Made by a program: the position numbers and the translations under genes. Below are positions 6,978 through 18,762 of a stretch of 22,770 nucleotides of DNA, one piece after another. The DNA lies in IMG/VR virus record IMGVR_UViG_3300021376_000374, positions 1 to 22,770 of that record; one strand, given 5' to 3'. The stretch's first letter is position 1. Every line of letters starts with the position of its first letter. The DNA comes from a virus. The notes below the pieces were generated by a model. That model was not told where the DNA came from. It saw only the letters and a program-made list of their open reading frames with translations, and did not search any database.

Positions 6978-7769
6978 ATGTCTTTACCTAGTAGTCCATC
7001 AAAAAAAGTTCTGGCGGATTTAAAAGCATCTATTTTAAATCCATCACTTACTTCAACATATCAGTGTTGGTTTCAACCATTAAATTCGGCATTAGATTCG
7101 AGTGGTAATAGTAAATTAGAAAAATGGTTTTCCGATAGAACTGCTGCTGGATTGGGAAATTATACTAATACTCAAGATGAATTTATTTCATTATCGTGTT
7201 CAGAGGCATCTCTTCCGGGTTCCTCTTTAGCAACACATGAGATTAATAATGATTATACTGGTGTAACAGAAAGACATGCTTATCGCAGACAATACGACGA
7301 CAGAATATCATTTACTTTTTACGTAGATCATGATTATCAAATTATACATTATTTTGAAAACTGGATGTCTTTTATTGTTAATGAACAAAGAACGAACTCT
7401 ACTGCTTTTGGACCAGGAGTAGATAATTTAAATTATTCATATCGCGTAAATTTTCCAAAAAATTATCAAGTACCAATTTATGTGGGAAAGTTTGAAAGAG
7501 ATTATACGGGAAGATCTTTAGAATATAAATTTATGAATGCATATCCAATTAGTATTGATTCGATGCCAGTCTCTTATGATTCTTCACAGTTATTAAAATG
7601 TACAGTATCGTTTACTTATTCTAGATATGTTATCAGCGTAAAAAATATAAGTGTTAGTAACAGCGAAGGACCTTTACAAAATAATTTTGGATTGCAACTA
7701 TTGCCAGGTAATGTTGGTGGATTCACTGGAACAGGATTTGAAGGATTTGCACCTTCAGATGTAGGATAA
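6978..7769 (+). CDS. 54: gp54-like baseplate tail tube initiator
   Basis: A 263-residue protein with a tail-tube-like core. Residues ~70-220 show LPGSSLATHEINNDYTGV, RRQYDDRISFTFYVD, a central helix HYFENWMSFI, then YKFMNAYPISIDSMPVSYDS and a final VSFTYSRYVI strand. This is the tube-protein beta-barrel pattern shared by gp19 and gp54 proteins. I favour gp54 over gp19 because it lies among baseplate genes beside gp48 and gp4, without a sheath gene next to it. T4 gp54 is 320 residues. gp54 sits on the gp48 cap and nucleates gp19 polymerisation. The gene diverges from gp4; its own promoter is not evident. Confidence 0.7.
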   Translation: MSLPSSPSKKVLADLKASILNPSLTSTYQCWFQPLNSALDSSGNSKLEKWFSDRTAAGLGNYTNTQDEFISLSCSEASLPGSSLATHEINNDYTGVTERHAYRRQYDDRISFTFYVDHDYQIIHYFENWMSFIVNEQRTNSTAFGPGVDNLNYSYRVNFPKNYQVPIYVGKFERDYTGRSLEYKFMNAYPISIDSMPVSYDSSQLLKCTVSFTYSRYVISVKNISVSNSEGPLQNNFGLQLLPGNVGGFTGTGFEGFAPSDVG

Positions 7770-7802: not shown

Positions 7803-8522
7803 ATGCCTTTACCAAAGATCTCTACGCCAACATATGAGTTGGAATTGCCTTCGACTGGACAAACAATTCAATACCGTCCATTTTTAGTTAAAGAAGAAAA
7901 ACTATTAGTATTAGCATTAGAAAGTGAGAATACAAAAGAGATTACAACTGCGATTAAAAATGTAATCAAATCTTGTATTCATACCAAAGGAATCAAAGTA
8001 GAAACTCTACCTACATTTGATATTGAATATCTTTTCCTCAACATTCGCGGTAAGTCTGTTGGGGAAGAGATTGAGGTGAATATCATCTGCCCTGATGATG
8101 GGGAGACTTATGTCCCTGTCAAAATTAGTATTGATGATATTAAAGTAGATAAAAAAGAAGAGCACACTAACAAAATCCAAGTTGACAAATCAATCGTGAT
8201 GGAGATGAAGTATCCATCACTAGATCAGTTCATTAAAAGTAATTTTGATCTTAGTTCTGATGGTGCGATGGATCAATCATTTGATTTAGTTGCAGCATGT
8301 ATTGATAAAATTTACACCGAACAAGAAGTATGGGCTGCGGCAGACTGCACAAAGAAAGAACTAGTGGAGTTTCTTGAACAGATGAACTCAACTCAATTCA
8401 AAGAGATTGAGAAATTCTTTGAGACAATGCCTAAACTTTCTCATGAAGTCAAAGTTACAAATCCTAAGACTGAAGTTGAGAGCACTGTCGTGCTGGAGGG
8501 ACTCTCAAGTTTTTTCGCATAG
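7803..8522 (+). CDS. 26: gp26-like baseplate hub assembly protein
   Basis: A 239-residue protein recognised as cyanophage gp26 (T4 gp26: 208 residues). The family core is near the N-terminus: PTYELELPSTGQTIQYRPFLVKEEK, with acidic helices, and FDIEYLFLNIRGKSVGEE near residue 80. T4 gp26 acts in hub assembly and is not a major structural part. The mid-region has a NIICPDDGETY strand pair; the C-terminal half is acidic and helical. The last codons read agt TTT TTC gca TAG, placing a canonical -1 slippery heptamer two codons before the stop, so a fraction of ribosomes may continue into the next frame. This resembles the lambda G/GT and P2 E/E' chaperones that precede tape measure genes. Confidence 0.75.
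   Translation: MPLPKISTPTYELELPSTGQTIQYRPFLVKEEKLLVLALESENTKEITTAIKNVIKSCIHTKGIKVETLPTFDIEYLFLNIRGKSVGEEIEVNIICPDDGETYVPVKISIDDIKVDKKEEHTNKIQVDKSIVMEMKYPSLDQFIKSNFDLSSDGAMDQSFDLVAACIDKIYTEQEVWAAADCTKKELVEFLEQMNSTQFKEIEKFFETMPKLSHEVKVTNPKTEVESTVVLEGLSSFFA
8510..8516 (+). promoter_or_regulatory. programmed -1 frameshift site T_TTT_TTC
   Basis: In the gp26 frame the bases read T TTT TTC, an X XXY YYZ heptamer, directly before GCA TAG. A -1 slip continues as CGC ATA GCC ... through the 55-codon frame to 8701, giving a protein of about 299 residues. Ten bases after the site is the perfect palindrome AATCCATATGGATT (8527-8540), a weak hairpin with the next ATG in its loop. Confidence 0.65.
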
Positions 8523-8533
8523 CCTTAATCCAT

Positions 8534-8701
8534 ATGGATTTGGAAAGTTATTTCAAACTTAATTTTTCGTTGATGCAGTACCATAAATACTCATTAACGG
8601 AGATTGAGAACATGATTCCTTGGGAAAGAGACATCTATGTTGAATTATTAAGAGCTCACTTAGAAGAAGAAAAACTTAAGCAGCAGCAAAATGGGTCCTG
8701 A
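8534..8701 (+). CDS. 55-codon frame after gp26: hub/tail assembly chaperone extension (gp51 position)
   Basis: The frame encodes MDLESYFKLNFSLMQYHKYS...IENMIPWERDIYVELLRAHLEE and ends at 8701. The pattern of an aromatic stretch, a short helix with E-I-E-x-M, then P-W-E-R-x-I-Y is typical of the small second proteins of tail assembly chaperone pairs. It lies where gene 51 follows 26 in T4, although T4 gp51 is much longer, so I leave the symbol blank. No ribosome site precedes the ATG. The frame stays open back to 8480, upstream of the slippery site, so it is probably translated mainly as a gp26 fusion. It overlaps the next gene by 11 bases. Confidence 0.65.
   Translation: MDLESYFKLNFSLMQYHKYSLTEIENMIPWERDIYVELLRAHLEEEKLKQQQNGS
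8582..8589 (+). promoter_or_regulatory. possible late box CATAAATA inside the 55-codon frame
   Basis: CATAAATA matches NATAAATA and lies about 100 bases before the tape-measure-like start at 8691. It is inside coding sequence (codons CAT AAA TAC), so it may be chance. Confidence 0.3.
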
Positions 8702-10820
8702 CGAGTTAGATGATCTATTATCCAGTATAAAAGCGGAGGGTAAGAAAGGTTCTGCTCTTGCTTTGTATGAAGGCGTTCGTGAGGATGATTTAGTTGATGA
8801 GAATATAGATGAAAGAATATTAAAATTACTTGGACTTGATGATGTTTTTGATATTGACTATGGAACATATGTCACTCTTCTAAAAGAAAGGCTTGCAGCA
8901 TCTAGAAGTTTCAGTAAAAAACTTTCTACGGAAGAAGACGAACTACTTGTCGAAGAGTTTAGAAAAGTTAAAGGAAAAGTTGGTAGATTTAAAATAAAAA
9001 GAAAAAAGATATCAGCAGAAAATCTTGGTGTCACTGGTCCTGTTAAAGTCTCTACTGAAAAATTTTATCTAACATCAAAAGCAATCATTCCCCAACCAGC
9101 AGCTCCTGCTGAAGGAAAATCTGAAGATATTAAAGACATTAGTGAGGCACTTGATGCATTATTAAAAAGCATCATAGGAGAAAATAAAAGAGAAAAGAAA
9201 AATGCAGAAAAAAATAGAAAGGATGATGAACAAAAGAGAAGAACAAAAAGAGAATCAGATCTAGAAAAACCAATTCAAAAGGCACTTGGTTTAGTTAAAA
9301 AAATAGTAGCACCATTCCAAAGTATTCTGGATAGAATCATGAGATTCATTCAGTTTACTTTACTTGGATTTTTAGTTGATAAAGTTTTAAAATGGTTTGC
9401 AGATCCTAAAAATAAAAGGAAAGTAGAAATCCTTGGTAGATTCTTAAAGGATTGGTGGCCTTCATTAGCATTTGCTGCTGGATTATTTCTAACTCCACTC
9501 GGAGCATTTATTCGTACAACTCTCAAGATGCTACGAGGATTTATTCCTCGAATGGTTCAGTTTATGGCACGTCATCCTTTAGTTTTTGCTGCAGTTACTG
9601 GGGGACTTGCCGCTGGTGCTGGTGAAATGTTTAGACAGAAAGAAGAGAAAAGGCAAATAGAAAGAGAAGCAAAACAAAGAAATGTAAAACCTGAAGTTGT
9701 CAAAAAAGAACTTGTAGAAGCACAACGTTCTCCTTTTGCAATGTTTGGTGAAGCAATGCAGAACATTTCTGGTGTTGCAGGTGGCGGTAGAATTAAAAGA
9801 AGATCCTTCTTTGGTGGGAATAGAGATGTCAATGTAAAAGATATTGCTTTTGAAGAGGGAGGTGGAATCAATGATGATAGTGGAGTAAGAATTACTGGTG
9901 CCGGTCCTGATACTCAACTCATTGCTGCTCAACCTGGCGAAGTTATGATGTCTAAAAAGGCAGTTGATAAGTATGGCGCTAACTTCTTCTTGGGATTAAA
10001 CAAGAGAGCAGGTGGAACTAACATTCCAAGAATGGTAAGTAACATTCAACTTGCTGCTGGTGGAGGAAAAATTAAAAAAATAATTCCATCTTTCCAAGGT
10101 GGAGGGATGATTGGTAGAGGATTGAATTTCTTAGGAAGACTTGGGTTGCCTGGAACTGGTAGTGTGATGGCACCAAATTATACTGATATGGGATATCAAA
10201 ATAAGTTTCTTGGTATGAATCTGAATAGAGTTAAATTACCACAAATTCCTGGACAACAGTTCTCTCAATCAGAAGTCCAAAGATATAATCAGTCACCTAC
10301 TGCCCCAAGTACAATAAGAGACTATAGTCCCTATGATCCTGTTCAAGTCAGTGTGCCAAGAGCACGAAGACAACCTACAACACCATCAACTAGTAAGAAT
10401 CGCTACGGTGAAGAAAGAACAAATGATCCTCTGACAAATACAATGAGAGGAATAAGAGACATGCAATTTTCTGAAAAGAAACTAAAGGCTATTGAAGAAC
10501 AACTAGGTAGACCTCTTGGCAATACAACATATGGTGAAACTCAGAAACAATTAATGGATGAATTCGGAAGATCAACTTTCGGAGAACAAAGAAAATTATT
10601 ATTGGGACCACAGTCTAGAGCAATGCCTGTAGGAACTCCAACAATTATCTCAAGAACTCAAACAATTGTGATGCCACCACAAACAATGCCAGGTAAGAAA
10701 CCAAGTGTTCCTGTCAAGACTGGAACACAAATACCTGACGTTTCAACTGTTGCCAGAATTCCTCACAGAGAAATGGTAACTCGGTCTCTTGGGATTGGTG
10801 ATTTAATGGGAGTCGGATGA
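8691..10820 (+). CDS. tape-measure-like tail protein (gp29 position)
   Basis: A 709-residue protein. The N-terminal ~200 residues are acidic then strongly charged and helical (a Lys/Arg/Glu-rich coiled-coil stretch near 165-195). Residues ~214-320 hold three hydrophobic segments (RFIQFTLLGFLVDKVLKWF, WWPSLAFAAGLFLTPLGAF, HPLVFAAVTGGLAAGAG). A Gly-rich part follows, with AAQPGEVMMSKKAVDKYGANFFLGLN near 415-440, a segment common in phage tape measure proteins. The C-terminus is Pro/Thr/Arg-rich and disordered. It directly follows the assembly chaperone pair, the classic position of a tape measure, and precedes a related gene with tail hydrolase domains. The start overlaps the previous frame by 11 bases. 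T4 gp29 does this job; I cannot prove homology to gp29 by eye. Confidence 0.6.
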   Translation: MGPDELDDLLSSIKAEGKKGSALALYEGVREDDLVDENIDERILKLLGLDDVFDIDYGTYVTLLKERLAASRSFSKKLSTEEDELLVEEFRKVKGKVGRFKIKRKKISAENLGVTGPVKVSTEKFYLTSKAIIPQPAAPAEGKSEDIKDISEALDALLKSIIGENKREKKNAEKNRKDDEQKRRTKRESDLEKPIQKALGLVKKIVAPFQSILDRIMRFIQFTLLGFLVDKVLKWFADPKNKRKVEILGRFLKDWWPSLAFAAGLFLTPLGAFIRTTLKMLRGFIPRMVQFMARHPLVFAAVTGGLAAGAGEMFRQKEEKRQIEREAKQRNVKPEVVKKELVEAQRSPFAMFGEAMQNISGVAGGGRIKRRSFFGGNRDVNVKDIAFEEGGGINDDSGVRITGAGPDTQLIAAQPGEVMMSKKAVDKYGANFFLGLNKRAGGTNIPRMVSNIQLAAGGGKIKKIIPSFQGGGMIGRGLNFLGRLGLPGTGSVMAPNYTDMGYQNKFLGMNLNRVKLPQIPGQQFSQSEVQRYNQSPTAPSTIRDYSPYDPVQVSVPRARRQPTTPSTSKNRYGEERTNDPLTNTMRGIRDMQFSEKKLKAIEEQLGRPLGNTTYGETQKQLMDEFGRSTFGEQRKLLLGPQSRAMPVGTPTIISRTQTIVMPPQTMPGKKPSVPVKTGTQIPDVSTVARIPHREMVTRSLGIGDLMGVG

Positions 10821-10821
10821 T

Positions 10822-13800
10822 ATGGCAGTCATAGATTCCAAGAAACTATTACCTCCTAGTAAACCTGGTGGTGCGATTGTAGATTCGCAAAAACCATTTC
10901 TGGTTCCTGTAAGCAATATTCTGTATAAGAAAGATGTCAACATCTCTCAAAAACTTTTAAAATCTGCAGATAAAGAAACACAAGAATCTGGTGGCAGTCT
11001 TGTTGTTATTAAAAAGAAAGTTTTAAAAATTAAAGACATAATTAATAACACATATTTAATTAAACAGAGTGAGGATAATCGTAAAACAAAGGAAAAGCAA
11101 AGACAGAGAAGAGATGAAAGAGAAAAAAAATTAGAAACTAAACCAAGTGGAAAAGCAGATTTTAATAATTTACCAAAAGTATCTTTACCTGGAAGAAGTA
11201 TTCTTGATACTATTAAACGTTTCCTTTTTTTCACTTTTGTTGGATTTTTGTTTAATAAGTATAGTGAATATCTACCAAAACTGGTAGAGTTTGGAAAATA
11301 TATAGAACCAGTTACTAAATTTATTGATTCATTTGCAAAAAATGCGATCAATGGTGTTATCAATTTTATCGATTTTGGTTATCAAGCATATGATAATGTT
11401 AGCAAAACCATTAAAAACATTGGCGGGAAGGATGCGGAAAAAACATTTACTGAGTTTTCTACTCAATTAAATCTTCTTTTAAATGGTGCCATCGCTGCTG
11501 CAATGTTGATTGCTAGCACTGCACCTAGGGGACCTAAGGGTGGGGCAGGGGCAGGTCGGCGCGGCGGTGATTTTGCTGCTGGATATGCGGCTGGATATGC
11601 GTCTGGACTTGCTTCTGGTAAAGGAATTAGACCTGGCGCTGGATTTACAGATCCTGGTAGGTATAGGGCATCTGGTCAAGCTAGAGCAGGTGGATTTGGA
11701 TTAGAACAAACAAGGAGGGGTTTATCATTTGAGCAATCGGTTGCAGCAAGAAAAACTACACAAACAACAGCAACTCAAGTTGCTAAAGGTGCTGCAAGAT
11801 TTGGTATCGCAAAAGTACCAATCATTGGTGCTTTGATTGGTTTTATTATCGATACTGTTGTTTTTCGTGAGAAACCATCCAGAGCAGCTGCAGGTGCAGT
11901 CGGAAGTGCTGTTGGACAAGGTATTGGACTTGCTCTTGCTGGAGGAACTACATTTGGACTTGGTGCTGGTGTTGGTTTATTTGCTGGTGGATTCTTAGGA
12001 GACATTATTGGAAAATCTTTATATGATGCTTTTGCTGGAGTTAAACCAGAACCAACACCAGCAAAAGCACAAGGAGGACAAGTAACCTCTGGACAATCTA
12101 CTGTTGCTTCATCAAGAAGAATTAAAACACAACAAGCTCCACGTCGTAAAACTTATACACCACCAAAGACGCAACCAGGAAAAGACATTGGTGGTAAACT
12201 AAAAATTGAAGAATTATATGGTAAAGATGAACCAGAACAAAGAAGTGCATTAAGAGCACTCACAAAGAGTTCTGCGGACTTAAAGAAAATGAACTCCATG
12301 TATGGGGTTACTGGTGGTATGCTTGGTGCTGGTATTGACATGGCACTTGGACAAAAACCAGATAAAAAACTTGCACGTGCCTTAGGAGATATGTTTGGTT
12401 CAGTGGTTACAGCGGCAGTTGATGCAGAACTTAATTCCTCATTTAATAGTATAACGAAAACTATTGGCATGGCAAATGGTGGTGTAGTTCCCTCTAGAGA
12501 AATTGGAGGTGGGATGAGTATCGGTGAAAAGATTGGTAAGTATATTTCTAATGCTTTTTCAATCGCACTTGAAAGTTCTGCTGCAAAAGTCTTACGTAAT
12601 TTAAATCAAGAATTAAATTTAGAGGGAGGTCCTCCAGGCGGCGCCACTGGACCCACTGGTCCTGATGGAAATGTTCCTGGTGCTAGACTTCGTGGGGGAT
12701 CCAATGCACAAATAGAGGCAGATCTTTTAGAATATTTTACCGCAATTTATGGTAAGAACGCTGCTATTGGTATTGTTGCTAATATTAGAAGAGAGAGTGG
12801 ATATAGAACCGCAACTCCAGAAAATTCTACTCATGAGGGAATGGTTCAGTGGAGTAGAAATGATCGTTGGCCTAAATTTGAAAAATGGGCTCAAAGTAAA
12901 GGGTTAGATCCTTACAATAGAAATGCTCAGGCACAATATATTGCTATTGATATTAATAATCATGGAATTGGTGCAGAATTAAAGTCTGCATCAAGTCCAG
13001 AAGAGGCAGCGAGTATTTTTTATAATAAATTTGAAAGAGGTGCTCATAGTAAACCTGTCAAAGGTAATTCTTATACCCCAGATAATCCTCATGAAACGAA
13101 AAATAGACGATTCATCGCAGAGATAACTGGCAGAAACCCCAACATTGGTAGTAGAAGTCAACAAGTAGTAGTTCAACCACAATCAGCACCACCAAGTAGA
13201 TTAACTAGTGCTCAATTCAAAGCTGTATTACCAGAGGGAAATCCTCAACTAACAAGTGGATTTGGATTTAGAAATACTGGTATTCCTGGAGCTTCTACGA
13301 ATCATCAGGGAATTGATATTGGTGTTGATCCAAATTCTAAGGTTACTGCATTAGAAGATGGTAAGGTAGTTGATATCTATCCAAATTTTGGCACACATGG
13401 CGATGGAGTTGTTGTTCAACATGCCGATGGAAATGTAATGGTATATGGACATGTTATTAGTAAAGTAAAGATCGGTGATAAAGTTAAGAAGGGGCAGGTA
13501 ATAGCACTAGTAAAACTATGGAAAGATCCTCGTTATCCAGGTCCTGGTAGTAGAACACACTTACACTTAGAAAGACGTATGGGTAGTGCAACCGGGACTG
13601 CCATAGATCCGACTAATTATTTGAAATCAGTAGCACCAAAACCACCCCAATTACAATCTTCACTAGCACCAACATCAGCATCAATAGTATCAACTCCTTC
13701 ATCTACTAGTAGTATACTTGCATCTGTTCAACAAAATCCTACATATAGCACGATATTTCAAGATATATTAATTGTAGAAAAGACAACTGTTGTTGTGTAA
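10822..13800 (+). CDS. tail protein with lysozyme-like and M23 endopeptidase domains
   Basis: A 992-residue protein. Residues ~1-600 resemble the preceding gene: a charged helical start, a hydrophobic RFLFFTFVGFLFNKYSEYL segment near 132, Gly/Ala-rich stretches (~225-400) and a Gly-zipper-like hydrophobic region. Residues ~630-770 match the phage tail lysozyme type, with ANIRRESGY (candidate catalytic E658) and a GMVQWSRNDRW region. Residues ~804-940 are an M23/LytM endopeptidase with metal ligands H828, D832 (NHQGIDIG) and H915 in HLH, plus H913. Both domains cut peptidoglycan, glycan and peptide bonds respectively, so this protein likely opens the wall during DNA entry. It starts one base after the previous stop. 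Domain calls are strong; its exact place (hub or tube lumen) is inferred. Confidence 0.8.
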   Translation: MAVIDSKKLLPPSKPGGAIVDSQKPFLVPVSNILYKKDVNISQKLLKSADKETQESGGSLVVIKKKVLKIKDIINNTYLIKQSEDNRKTKEKQRQRRDEREKKLETKPSGKADFNNLPKVSLPGRSILDTIKRFLFFTFVGFLFNKYSEYLPKLVEFGKYIEPVTKFIDSFAKNAINGVINFIDFGYQAYDNVSKTIKNIGGKDAEKTFTEFSTQLNLLLNGAIAAAMLIASTAPRGPKGGAGAGRRGGDFAAGYAAGYASGLASGKGIRPGAGFTDPGRYRASGQARAGGFGLEQTRRGLSFEQSVAARKTTQTTATQVAKGAARFGIAKVPIIGALIGFIIDTVVFREKPSRAAAGAVGSAVGQGIGLALAGGTTFGLGAGVGLFAGGFLGDIIGKSLYDAFAGVKPEPTPAKAQGGQVTSGQSTVASSRRIKTQQAPRRKTYTPPKTQPGKDIGGKLKIEELYGKDEPEQRSALRALTKSSADLKKMNSMYGVTGGMLGAGIDMALGQKPDKKLARALGDMFGSVVTAAVDAELNSSFNSITKTIGMANGGVVPSREIGGGMSIGEKIGKYISNAFSIALESSAAKVLRNLNQELNLEGGPPGGATGPTGPDGNVPGARLRGGSNAQIEADLLEYFTAIYGKNAAIGIVANIRRESGYRTATPENSTHEGMVQWSRNDRWPKFEKWAQSKGLDPYNRNAQAQYIAIDINNHGIGAELKSASSPEEAASIFYNKFERGAHSKPVKGNSYTPDNPHETKNRRFIAEITGRNPNIGSRSQQVVVQPQSAPPSRLTSAQFKAVLPEGNPQLTSGFGFRNTGIPGASTNHQGIDIGVDPNSKVTALEDGKVVDIYPNFGTHGDGVVVQHADGNVMVYGHVISKVKIGDKVKKGQVIALVKLWKDPRYPGPGSRTHLHLERRMGSATGTAIDPTNYLKSVAPKPPQLQSSLAPTSASIVSTPSSTSSILASVQQNPTYSTIFQDILIVEKTTVVV

Positions 13801-15363: not shown

Positions 15364-18300
15364 ATGAACCAATACACTGGCAATGCAGGAGAACAAAGTA
15401 ATCAACAACTTTTTGAGTACATCTTAAACTCTAATCCAACTTTTAAACCACAAATTGCTCAGATTGCAGATGAAGATGGGTATTTGTCTGGTATTCCTGA
15501 TCGAAAATATACCGTAGCAGGATTATCTACAGATATTATTTTAAGAAGATATAAAATTAGAATATGCTCAATGCATGATTCTACAACTCCTATCACTGAT
15601 TTGCCATGGGCATATGGTAAATTAACTACATCTGGTCTTAGAAGAGAGTCAGTTGGAATAACAGTTTATCCTAAAAATACATACGTTACAGTTTTTCAAA
15701 ATCCTGACACTGGAGATTACTACATTGATGAGGTTCGTGCAAATACATTACCTAATCTCTCCAATGATGACTCTGAGAATGTTTGTAAACCTAGAACTGG
15801 TATAGTTCCAGGGTCACTTCATTATGAGATTTCAACAACCGCACAAAACCCAAAGGGAAACGGTAGAGCTCGTGGAGGAGAACTTAATCTAACTGTTCCT
15901 AATAAAGCTGGTGAGCAGCAAAATGTAACAAATGAAACTATTATATTAGGTCAGGGTTGTAAGAAAGTTAATACTGAAGCTATTAATAAAGAAATTTCAA
16001 ACTTAATCAAAGATGTTGAAAATTTAAGAACAGGATTATTAGGTGATGATAGTTTTTTAACAACTAGTCAAAATTTTATAAATGATGTTCAGTCTAAAGT
16101 TAATGATGCCTCTGCCAAGTTATCAAATCTCACGGCATGGTTAATTCAAGAATTAAGAAAATATATCAATAGAAAAGTCAATGCGGGGATTAGAGATTTA
16201 ACTGGCAATGCTCCTTTAAGTTCCAGATATTTAATCAATGAAGTCACAAAGGAATCATTGAATACTATCTCCTGTCTTTTTGTAAAACTATTACAGAATC
16301 TTGAAAATATTATCAGACAAATTTTGAATGCAATTATTGATAGAGTTGTTAATACTGCTCAGTGTGTTTTAGAAAACTTACTTGGCAACTTAATCGGACA
16401 AATTGTTTCTCAATTAACCTCTGCAATTAATGGTATTTTAGGTCCAATATCAAGTCTTCTTGGTTCTATTATTTCTTTTACAAGTGAAACCTTAGATTTT
16501 GTAATTTCAATTTTAGATTTCTTAGAATGTAAAGTTGAGAATGTATGTCCAATTCCTAAGGAATGGAACTTTTTGGAAGGAGCTCCACCACCCATACCAT
16601 CTATAGATTTCAATAGGGTGTTCAATGCAGCTAGAAGCGTTGTTGATAGTGCGGTTGGAGTAGTCAACATACCAGAGAATTTGAGCAATTTTAATTTTAA
16701 TGTTGATGTGGATGGTGCTATCGTTGGTGCGGCTGGATGTTTAGGATTTGGTCCCGAAGCATGTGGGGCACCTAATGTTGTTTTTTGGGGAGGTAAAGGT
16801 TCTGGTGGAACTGGAAATGCAGTTCTCAATGCGGCAGGTGATATCATTGGAGTAGACATTATTACACCAGGAAACTATACTTCAGCTCCTGTCATTGCGT
16901 TTGAAGATAATTGTGGAAATGGTGTTGGGGCATATGGAATTCCTATTTTAGGAGATGTGGTTGGTATAATAACAGCATCTGATGGAACAACTGGCATCGG
17001 AACAACAACGCTCCCTGGAACAACAACGCTCCCTGGAACAACTGGTATCGGAACAACAACGCTCCCTGGAACAACAACGCTCTCTGGAACAACTGGTATC
17101 AGAACAACAACGCTCCCTGGAACAACTGGCATCGGAACAACAGCAATAGTAACGGGTATTACTGATGTTGTGATGATTAAAACTGGATATGGATATCTTC
17201 CAGCTCCAGACGGTTCTAAAGGAGGAATGAATAGAACTTGGGCAGGTCGTTGTCAAACTATTGTGAGAAGAGCGAATGGAAATTGGGATCCTGTATATAG
17301 TGAGGGACAACTTATTAAATTATTATTTGGAGACATGATACAACTTCCTGGTAAGGGAGAAGTTTATATTGACTGCGATTTTACCGCAGCAAAATTACCA
17401 GGATGTAATGTAGTTGGAACATTGACTTGCTTAAAAAGCATGATTGGATTTGATGATGGTAGAGGAGGAATAAAATCTCAACTTCCGAATATAAAAAGTA
17501 TGGTTGGTTTTGACGATCTTAGAGGATCGAGTCTAGAGAACACTCCACCAATTCCTCCAGATCATAAAAGACGAGTTGATGAATTGATGAAAACGACAGA
17601 AGCAATTGAGGCATTTGAAAGAGAAAGAGTTTTGGTAGAACAAGGGGTAATCACTGGAATATATCGTCCAGATCAATTTGGATTCTATAATGATTATCCA
17701 TATGCGAAGGAACTTGGATTTACAGATCAAGACATTAGATTTTACATTGAAGGTTTCTACTCAAAGATATTGGGCAAGAGAGTTGGACCTTTGATGCAAG
17801 TTGTACTAGGTGATCCAAACTTTGGTCCTTTACCCAAGTATCTCACTGGTAACGGAGGTGCTGGAGTATTTGATTATGAGAATGACTATCCATATGCAGT
17901 TTCCCTTGGATTTACTGATCAGGATATTCGTTACTATTTGGAAAATTTCTATACTGGAATTATTGCGGATGATATGCGGAGAAAATTAAATGATCCAAGT
18001 TGGGGAAGAATACCTGAGTTTTATGTAACGATTACTGCACCAGGTTGTCCACCAGAAAATCCTCCAAAGGACGATTATGGTGTAATTCCTATCATTAAAG
18101 ATATCTATATTGAACAAGGTGGATTTGGATACAAACCTGAGGATACTGCGACTCTTCTAGATTGCGTTGGAAATCCAGATGCGGCAACGAAACTTGAGTT
18201 TGATGTTGATCAGAACGGATCAATTATCAAAATGAGAGTTATTCAATCTGGAACGAACTTTGCATGTGTTCCTGAGATTAGAATGAATACTAAAACAGGA

Positions 18301-18762
18301 TACAACGCAAGACTCAAACCCATTCTTAGATTTAGAAAAGAATTTGAAGATGATGTTCCAGCTGGAACTGTTCCACTCAAAGTTATTGATTGTGTAGGCA
18401 CTCCTCGTCGAGAAATTAAAGCATTACCAACTCCAAAGTCTATTGTCACTACTCGTGCCGATACAACTTCAACCACTACAGGATCAACAGCAGCCGCGAG
18501 TCCTTCGACTTCGGCAAGGGTAACAACTTCAACAATAACTTCAACTCCAACAACAACTCAAACAACAACTCCAACAACTCCAACTCCATCTCCTTCGCCA
18601 ACTCCAACTCCATCTCCTTCGCCAACTCCAACTCCATCTCCTTCACCAACACCAACACCATCCCCTTCACCAGCACCAACACCATCCCCTTCACCAGCAC
18701 CATCTCCATCACCGACCCCTCCATCACCACCACCCTCTCCACCTCCCTATTATGGATATTAG
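15364..18762 (+). CDS. giant gp5-like OB-fold spike protein with repeat tracts
   Basis: A 1132-residue protein. Residues ~35-125 look like a gp5/VgrG OB-fold (IRICSMHD..., LPWAYGKL, YVTVFQNPDTGDYYI). A long amphipathic then hydrophobic helical region follows (~200-400), rich in Ile, Leu and Val. Next come a Gly-rich region, a T-G-rich repeat (541-590), two copies of a DYPYA...LGFTDQDIR module (~773-880), a C-rich part, and a Thr-rich plus Pro-rich tail ending PPYYGY, made of TPTPSPSP units. T4 gp5 has OB, lysozyme and beta-helix parts; only the OB part is visible here. It probably forms the spike or a spike-attached fibre. The repeats are low complexity and may vary between strains. Confidence 0.65.
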   Translation: MNQYTGNAGEQSNQQLFEYILNSNPTFKPQIAQIADEDGYLSGIPDRKYTVAGLSTDIILRRYKIRICSMHDSTTPITDLPWAYGKLTTSGLRRESVGITVYPKNTYVTVFQNPDTGDYYIDEVRANTLPNLSNDDSENVCKPRTGIVPGSLHYEISTTAQNPKGNGRARGGELNLTVPNKAGEQQNVTNETIILGQGCKKVNTEAINKEISNLIKDVENLRTGLLGDDSFLTTSQNFINDVQSKVNDASAKLSNLTAWLIQELRKYINRKVNAGIRDLTGNAPLSSRYLINEVTKESLNTISCLFVKLLQNLENIIRQILNAIIDRVVNTAQCVLENLLGNLIGQIVSQLTSAINGILGPISSLLGSIISFTSETLDFVISILDFLECKVENVCPIPKEWNFLEGAPPPIPSIDFNRVFNAARSVVDSAVGVVNIPENLSNFNFNVDVDGAIVGAAGCLGFGPEACGAPNVVFWGGKGSGGTGNAVLNAAGDIIGVDIITPGNYTSAPVIAFEDNCGNGVGAYGIPILGDVVGIITASDGTTGIGTTTLPGTTTLPGTTGIGTTTLPGTTTLSGTTGIRTTTLPGTTGIGTTAIVTGITDVVMIKTGYGYLPAPDGSKGGMNRTWAGRCQTIVRRANGNWDPVYSEGQLIKLLFGDMIQLPGKGEVYIDCDFTAAKLPGCNVVGTLTCLKSMIGFDDGRGGIKSQLPNIKSMVGFDDLRGSSLENTPPIPPDHKRRVDELMKTTEAIEAFERERVLVEQGVITGIYRPDQFGFYNDYPYAKELGFTDQDIRFYIEGFYSKILGKRVGPLMQVVLGDPNFGPLPKYLTGNGGAGVFDYENDYPYAVSLGFTDQDIRYYLENFYTGIIADDMRRKLNDPSWGRIPEFYVTITAPGCPPENPPKDDYGVIPIIKDIYIEQGGFGYKPEDTATLLDCVGNPDAATKLEFDVDQNGSIIKMRVIQSGTNFACVPEIRMNTKTGYNARLKPILRFRKEFEDDVPAGTVPLKVIDCVGTPRREIKALPTPKSIVTTRADTTSTTTGSTAAASPSTSARVTTSTITSTPTTTQTTTPTTPTPSPSPTPTPSPSPTPTPSPSPTPTPSPSPAPTPSPSPAPSPSPTPPSPPPSPPPYYGY
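16984..17133 (+). repeat. nested 15/18-base tandem repeats in the spike gene
   Basis: Nine units in order 15-18-18-15-18-18-15-18-15: 15-mers GGAACAACTGGYATC (4 copies) and 18-mers GGAACAACAACGCTCCCT (5 copies, two with a single change). They encode GTTGI and GTTTLP blocks. The units share their first 8 bases, so one probably arose from the other by slippage. Confidence 0.9.
18577..18696 (+). repeat. five 24-base tandem repeats coding TPTPSPSP
   Basis: Five consecutive 24-base units; the first two are identical and later ones diverge progressively. They encode TPTPSPSP four times, then APTPSPSP, continuing into a Pro-rich end. The pattern is consistent with recent expansion at the 5' end and older copies at the 3' end. 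Confidence 0.9.

Follow-up and report, generated by a model that had tools for sequence, protein, structure and literature searches.

A probable programmed −1 frameshift fuses gp26 to the 'gp51' frame in T4-related cyanophages

Introduction

The usual order of phage tail genes is tail tube, chaperone, tape measure. The window analysed here, the whole 22,770-base virus record of a T4-related cyanophage, has a tail-tube-like gene, gp26, an extension in the −1 frame and a large ORF in this order, all on the + strand. The tail-tube-like gene (6978..7769; PHROG 45 tail tube, E 4.5e-37) lies directly upstream of gp26 (7803..8522), whose 239-aa product is 76–80% identical to gp26 of SynMITS9220M01, S-SM2, P-TIM68 and Bellamy. 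The locus raises the question of whether all ribosomes finish at the gp26 stop codon or some slip back one base shortly before it and read on into the following frame, as the initial annotation had claimed in proposing a programmed −1 frameshift between the two. Comparative evidence from relatives of this phage strongly supports that proposal, and we address below the slip site, the RNA around it, the protein that would result and the gene that follows.

Results

A slippery heptamer precedes the gp26 stop codon

The 3′ end of gp26 reads AGT (8508–8510), TTT (8511–8513), TTC (8514–8516), GCA (8517–8519) and TAG (8520–8522). The heptamer T_TTT_TTC reported in the initial annotation is thus present at 8510–8516 and in the gp26 frame. 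The −1 frame, said there to be open from 8480 to 8698, was found open over exactly this span, with a TGA stop at 8699–8701, and after the Phe-Phe pair (FF) it reads RIALIHMDLESYFKLNFSLMQYHKYSLTEIENMIPWERDIYVELLRAHLEEEKLKQQQNGS. The extension proper (8516..8701 with its stop) comprises 61 residues from RIALIH on (8516–8698) and matches the protein called 'gp51' in cyanophage annotation, so that the predicted fusion is 299 aa long, with 238 gp26 residues through FF followed by these 61. For the chaperone tail suspected in this frame, matches were found to PHROG 634 (E 6.4e-28) and to the C-terminus of PHROG 150, and tblastn with the extension matched 550 phage records. The first ATG of the −1 frame (8534–8536), a rival start codon partly within a hairpin, does lack an upstream Shine-Dalgarno sequence, as had been suggested.

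In each of the 80 closest IMG/VR relatives, a single codon separates T_TTT_TTC from the gp26 stop, and the extension is in the −1 frame. We then assembled 239 distinct gp26 junctions from IMG/VR relatives, more distant relatives and named phages. Loss of the heptamer among relatives, which would have spoken against the frameshift, was the opposite of what we found: U_UUU_UUN stands in frame at 237 of the 239 junctions (183 with C, 50 with U and 4 with A in the last position). When the 231 loci whose extension is full-length were clustered at 60% protein identity, a step applied to this main claim while the other counts include related sequences, the heptamer was present in 63/63 clusters. Since codon usage predicts the T + TTT part at a frequency of only about 45%, its occurrence in every cluster is beyond chance. 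The heptamer is also found in phages that are about 26% identical in gp26 (PhiW-14 and Marzo). As an internal control, T_TTT_TTY occurred in only 2/237 of the other Phe-Phe pairs of the same genes. Four relatives have UUA, a leucine codon, so it is the bases that are kept and not the Phe-Phe pair.

The two junctions lacking the heptamer are those of Vibrio phage D503 and of a T4-like locus (L102), where the search had matched the gp51 paralogue. In D503 (L091, 3580–3600) the extension is still in the −1 frame, but the heptamer position reads A_CTT_TTC and there is an overlapping TAATG start; this lineage may have switched to coupled initiation. In S-SCSM1 (L085, MK867354.2, ~1990–2016) the heptamer is intact and an 11-nt insertion 3′ of the gp26 stop throws gp51 out of the −1 frame; the frameshift may have been truly lost here, or the assembly may be wrong.

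Candidate stimulators flank the slip site

A hairpin, AAUCC-AUAU-GGAUU (8527–8531/8536–8540), begins 10 nt past the heptamer in the window, a spacer longer than the usual 5–9 nt between heptamer and stem. The initial annotation had described a palindrome with the ATG in its loop; the hairpin is there at 10 nt, but only the A and U of this codon lie in the loop and the G belongs to the stem. Taken alone, the hairpin of the window is weak (z −1.29 against dinucleotide shuffles and −2.15 against synonymous-codon shuffles). Across relatives, the 53 nt past the heptamer had a mean folding z of −1.95, with 48% of sequences below −2 and thus more stable than shuffles in which synonymous codons were exchanged while the −1 frame protein was left unchanged; control segments further downstream gave −0.37 and −0.60. 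The stem found in the window's clade (GGUCC-AUAU-GGACC) shows compensated variation, and its pair 20–27 is the top covarying pair of the whole region. When the 3′ letters were shuffled, 76% of pairing remained compared with 83% observed, and because the shuffles retain so much pairing, the support for this stem comes mainly from the covarying pairs and the register-slide controls. The P-SSM2-like clade has an 11-bp stem (AGUAUGGCUCA/UGAGUCAUACU) that starts 5 nt past the heptamer, shows compensatory changes at two pairs and is paired in 97.7% of cells, compared with 26–41% in slid registers. Relatives of MC09 have a third, different perfect stem. With differing stems in three clades, a downstream stem therefore appears to be kept while its sequence and position change. 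The 5-bp hairpin of the window's clade was also considered as a structure common to all relatives and was rejected, as its pairs are mostly unpaired in cyanophages without an ATG at that site; in those cyanophages other stems occur. No Rfam match was found around the junction.

Upstream of the slip site, gp26 of the window contains GGAGGG (8495–8500), a Shine-Dalgarno-like candidate stimulator 9 nt 5′ of the heptamer. The Glu-Gly codons of a conserved 'LEGL' segment are GAG GGN or GAA GGG, and GGG was used in 23/37 cases after GAA but in only 11/111 after GAG, in counts uncorrected for relatedness. This codon choice preserves AGGG about 10 nt 5′ of the heptamer in most cyanophages; the motif is missing from most of the distant relatives with UUUUUUU.

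T4 gp51 resembles the predicted fusion protein

PF12322 spans residues 9–239 of the window gp26 (E 3.9e-77), T4 gp26 and residues 1–201 of T4 gp51. PHROG 150 extends over all of T4 gp51, and the window gp26 corresponds to the first part of this family and the window extension to the last; PHROG 634 and PHROG 150 are both common to the extension and T4 gp51. When T4-like gp51 was aligned with the frameshift fusions by profile, the alignment ran for 235 columns through the junction (E 1.2e-21). By these alignments, T4 gp51 is the counterpart of the whole predicted fusion. T4 gp26 and gp51 are themselves paralogues (BLAST E 1.7e-6 over 161 aa), encoded on opposite strands, and gene 51 has its own AAGGAG. 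In T4 gp26 (L084, 3803–4429) and its close relatives the Phe-Phe pair is kept as TTC TTT, which is not slippery, and the more distant Straboviridae phage Ah1 retains both the heptamer and the −1 extension. Most simply, T-even phages would have exchanged the frameshift for two genes, a direction that we infer.

Frameshifting accounts best for the −1 frame

Cyanophage records in GenBank carry gp51 as a CDS of its own, and it could accordingly be a separate small protein, made by re-initiation or coupling at the ATG at 8534–8536 just past the gp26 stop. In 151/237 loci an ATG is indeed present no more than 40 nt from the heptamer, and overlap starts of the form TGATG or TAATG occur in some distant phages. 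Yet 63/237 loci have no ATG, GTG or TTG in the first 40 nt, and the stretch of peptide preceding any start is nonetheless conserved in them. Conservation begins at the first codon past the slip (motif xxxxH; e.g. FFRxxxxHxxLxxYY and FFYLALSH), and from this pattern the −1 frame is judged to be coding from the slip site onward. Translation of the second frame only from its own ATG, which the initial annotation had named as evidence to the contrary, thus fits poorly with the many relatives that have no early start codon. The difficulty shows in the GenBank entries: no gp51 is annotated in S-CAM4 and ACG-2014d, and its start is placed within conserved sequence in S-RIM2, ACG-2014a and Syn1. In the cyanophage records examined, 'gp51' starts would then be wrong or truncated, or the gene missed, and none of the GenBank records examined has a joined gp26–gp51 gene. 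A separate protein also leaves the conserved heptamer unexplained, and its T4 equivalent is one fused protein; we regard this explanation as improbable.

Slippage could also occur during transcription, with RNA polymerase slipping on the T run so that a minority of mRNAs gain one base or lose two. T runs of 6 to 8 are present in all relatives, but often there are just 6 T before a C, a short run for polymerase slippage; UUUUUUA and UUUUUUC moreover stay in the heptamer register, and both the RNA structure downstream and the Shine-Dalgarno-like motif within gp26 suit a slipping ribosome, so that we give transcriptional slippage marginally less weight even than a separate gp51. Homopolymer runs are prone to sequencing error, and the two frames might adjoin merely through an indel in the assembly, the T run being incidental. 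The same arrangement at 237 distinct junctions from isolates and metagenomes rules out such chance or error. We conclude with high confidence, from comparison of sequences, that gp26 and the 'gp51' frame very probably encode a tail assembly chaperone of the lambda G/GT type, expressed by a programmed −1 frameshift.

We infer the slippage itself, its efficiency and the role in assembly as follows. The window gp26 would be the short tail assembly chaperone (TAC-N, G-like) of a T4-related cyanophage, with most ribosomes stopping at 8520–8522 to give the 239-aa protein. In a minority, the P- and A-site tRNAs would re-pair one base back on U_UUU_UUC, aided in the window's lineage by the upstream GGAGGG and the downstream stem-loop (8527–8540), and these ribosomes would add the 61 residues (TAC-C) of the 299-aa long chaperone. 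If assembly proceeds as it does with lambda G/GT, the tape measure protein would be coated by many copies of the short chaperone and a few of the long one, and these would recruit tail tube subunits.

gp26 is predicted to have a tail assembly chaperone fold

The AlphaFold model of gp26 had a mean pLDDT of 88.6. Comparison with VIA-align placed residues 1–86 on the HK97 tail assembly chaperone (TAC) 2OB9 with Z 7.9 and an rmsd of 4.0 Å over 84 residues, and the first 90 residues of the model matched 3FGX (Z 8.0) and YqbN 3KLU (Z 7.2), above all unrelated structures. The Z values for 3FGX, 2OB9 and 3KLU are moderate, but they are mutually consistent and the matches cover most of each target. Foldseek with the gp26 model gave no match below E 0.001, its TAC match being weak (E 0.66), and a search of PDB chains with the gp26 sequence found no relative, the best hits (E 0.089) being unrelated proteins. 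For the T4 gp51 model, VIA-align returned a TAC match of only Z 3.7, among unrelated matches. From its model, gp26 is thus predicted to have the tail assembly chaperone fold. For T4, gp26 and gp51 appear among the hub assembly chaperones, and gp51 is not found in the particle although it is required (PMC3004832).

The start of the next gene overlaps the −1 frame

The next ORF (8691..10820, 709 aa), a tape-measure candidate by position, has an ATG start that overlaps the end of the −1 frame (8691–8701) and lacks a Shine-Dalgarno sequence. The overlap recurs in 157/214 relatives, and only 39/157 of the overlapping starts have a Shine-Dalgarno-like match of at least 4 nt. This arrangement suggests that the next-gene start is translationally coupled to frameshifted ribosomes: because the start overlaps the −1 end, usually without a Shine-Dalgarno sequence, only slipped ribosomes would reach it and re-initiate there. 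If this were true, the supply of tape measure would be tied to that of the long chaperone. A wider reading, in which the frameshift sets the level of the next gene and unrelated downstream stimulators have replaced each other between clades at a fixed slip site, is offered tentatively, and we think it rather unlikely to hold as a whole.

A further ORF of 992 aa (10822..13800), with tail lysozyme and M23 peptidase domains (PF18013, PF01551), is a second tape-measure or cell-puncturing candidate. The 709-aa and 992-aa ORFs share an N-terminal segment and both match PHROG 35997; they could be paralogues, or a tape measure split in two. Elsewhere in the window, an ORF of 1132 aa (15364–18762) has GTTGIGTTTLPGTT-type repeats and, at its C-terminus, a long repeat rich in Pro, Ser and Thr.

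Discussion

Like lambda gpG/gpGT, P2 E/E′ and HK97 gp13 (reviewed in PMC5009743), the locus described here combines a short chaperone with a −1 extension, and predicted structure suggests that the TAC fold is shared as well; in the window the pair follows a tail-tube-like gene and precedes the tape-measure candidate. In contrast to lambda gpG, gp26 is larger (239 aa) and has a second C-terminal domain, and its slippery site is U_UUU_UUC, whereas the lambda G/GT site is G_GGA_AAG. The candidate signals resemble those of E. coli dnaX in having an upstream Shine-Dalgarno-like AGGG, a slippery heptamer and a downstream stem-loop. In dnaX the Shine-Dalgarno-like motif is about 10 nt upstream of the slip site, the heptamer is A_AAA_AAG, the stem is much stronger and the shifted product is shorter, not longer; the window differs in its U_UUU_UUC, its weaker stem and its longer shifted product. 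The internal Shine-Dalgarno sequence of the dnaX −1 frameshift is described in PMC5600365.

G–T frameshifting has been described as widely conserved 'except T4' (Atkins et al. 2016, PMC5009743). According to passages in two later articles (PMC10885494, PMC12846349), the chaperone genes of T4-like phages were identified by Vladimirov, Gautam and Davidson (2022, Virology 566:9), who, as cited there, argue for a mechanism other than frameshifting. The PRFect article, in its summary of that work, states that in some T4-like phages one gene is short and the other is a long, fused gene (PMC10885494), and the article on phage Adele cites the same study for poly-T slippery signals as known in T4-like TAC-N genes (PMC12846349). 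Because T4-like chaperone genes and poly-T TAC-N signals have already been published, the frameshift of the window is best viewed as a further case of a known mechanism. We found no prior description of the conserved yet changing downstream stems, the internal Shine-Dalgarno-like motif or the overlap of the next gene with the −1 frame. The TAC of phage Adele, from the Vandenendeviridae/Andersonviridae, likewise has a poly-T signal at the end of TAC-N, followed ahead of the tape measure by a −1 frame that is conserved, but it belongs to different families and has a GTTTTT motif, and the available text reports no RNA stimulator (PMC12846349).

The closest comparison is with T4 itself, whose gp26 and gp51 belong to the same protein family (PF12322; PHROG 150 and 634). 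In the T4-related cyanophages examined, the frameshift layout is near-universal, while T4 makes the short and long forms from two opposite-strand genes, one of them a separate, already fused gp51, and has no slippery heptamer. Related phages thus illustrate well how one job would be done by a frameshift in some and by a paralogous gene pair in others.
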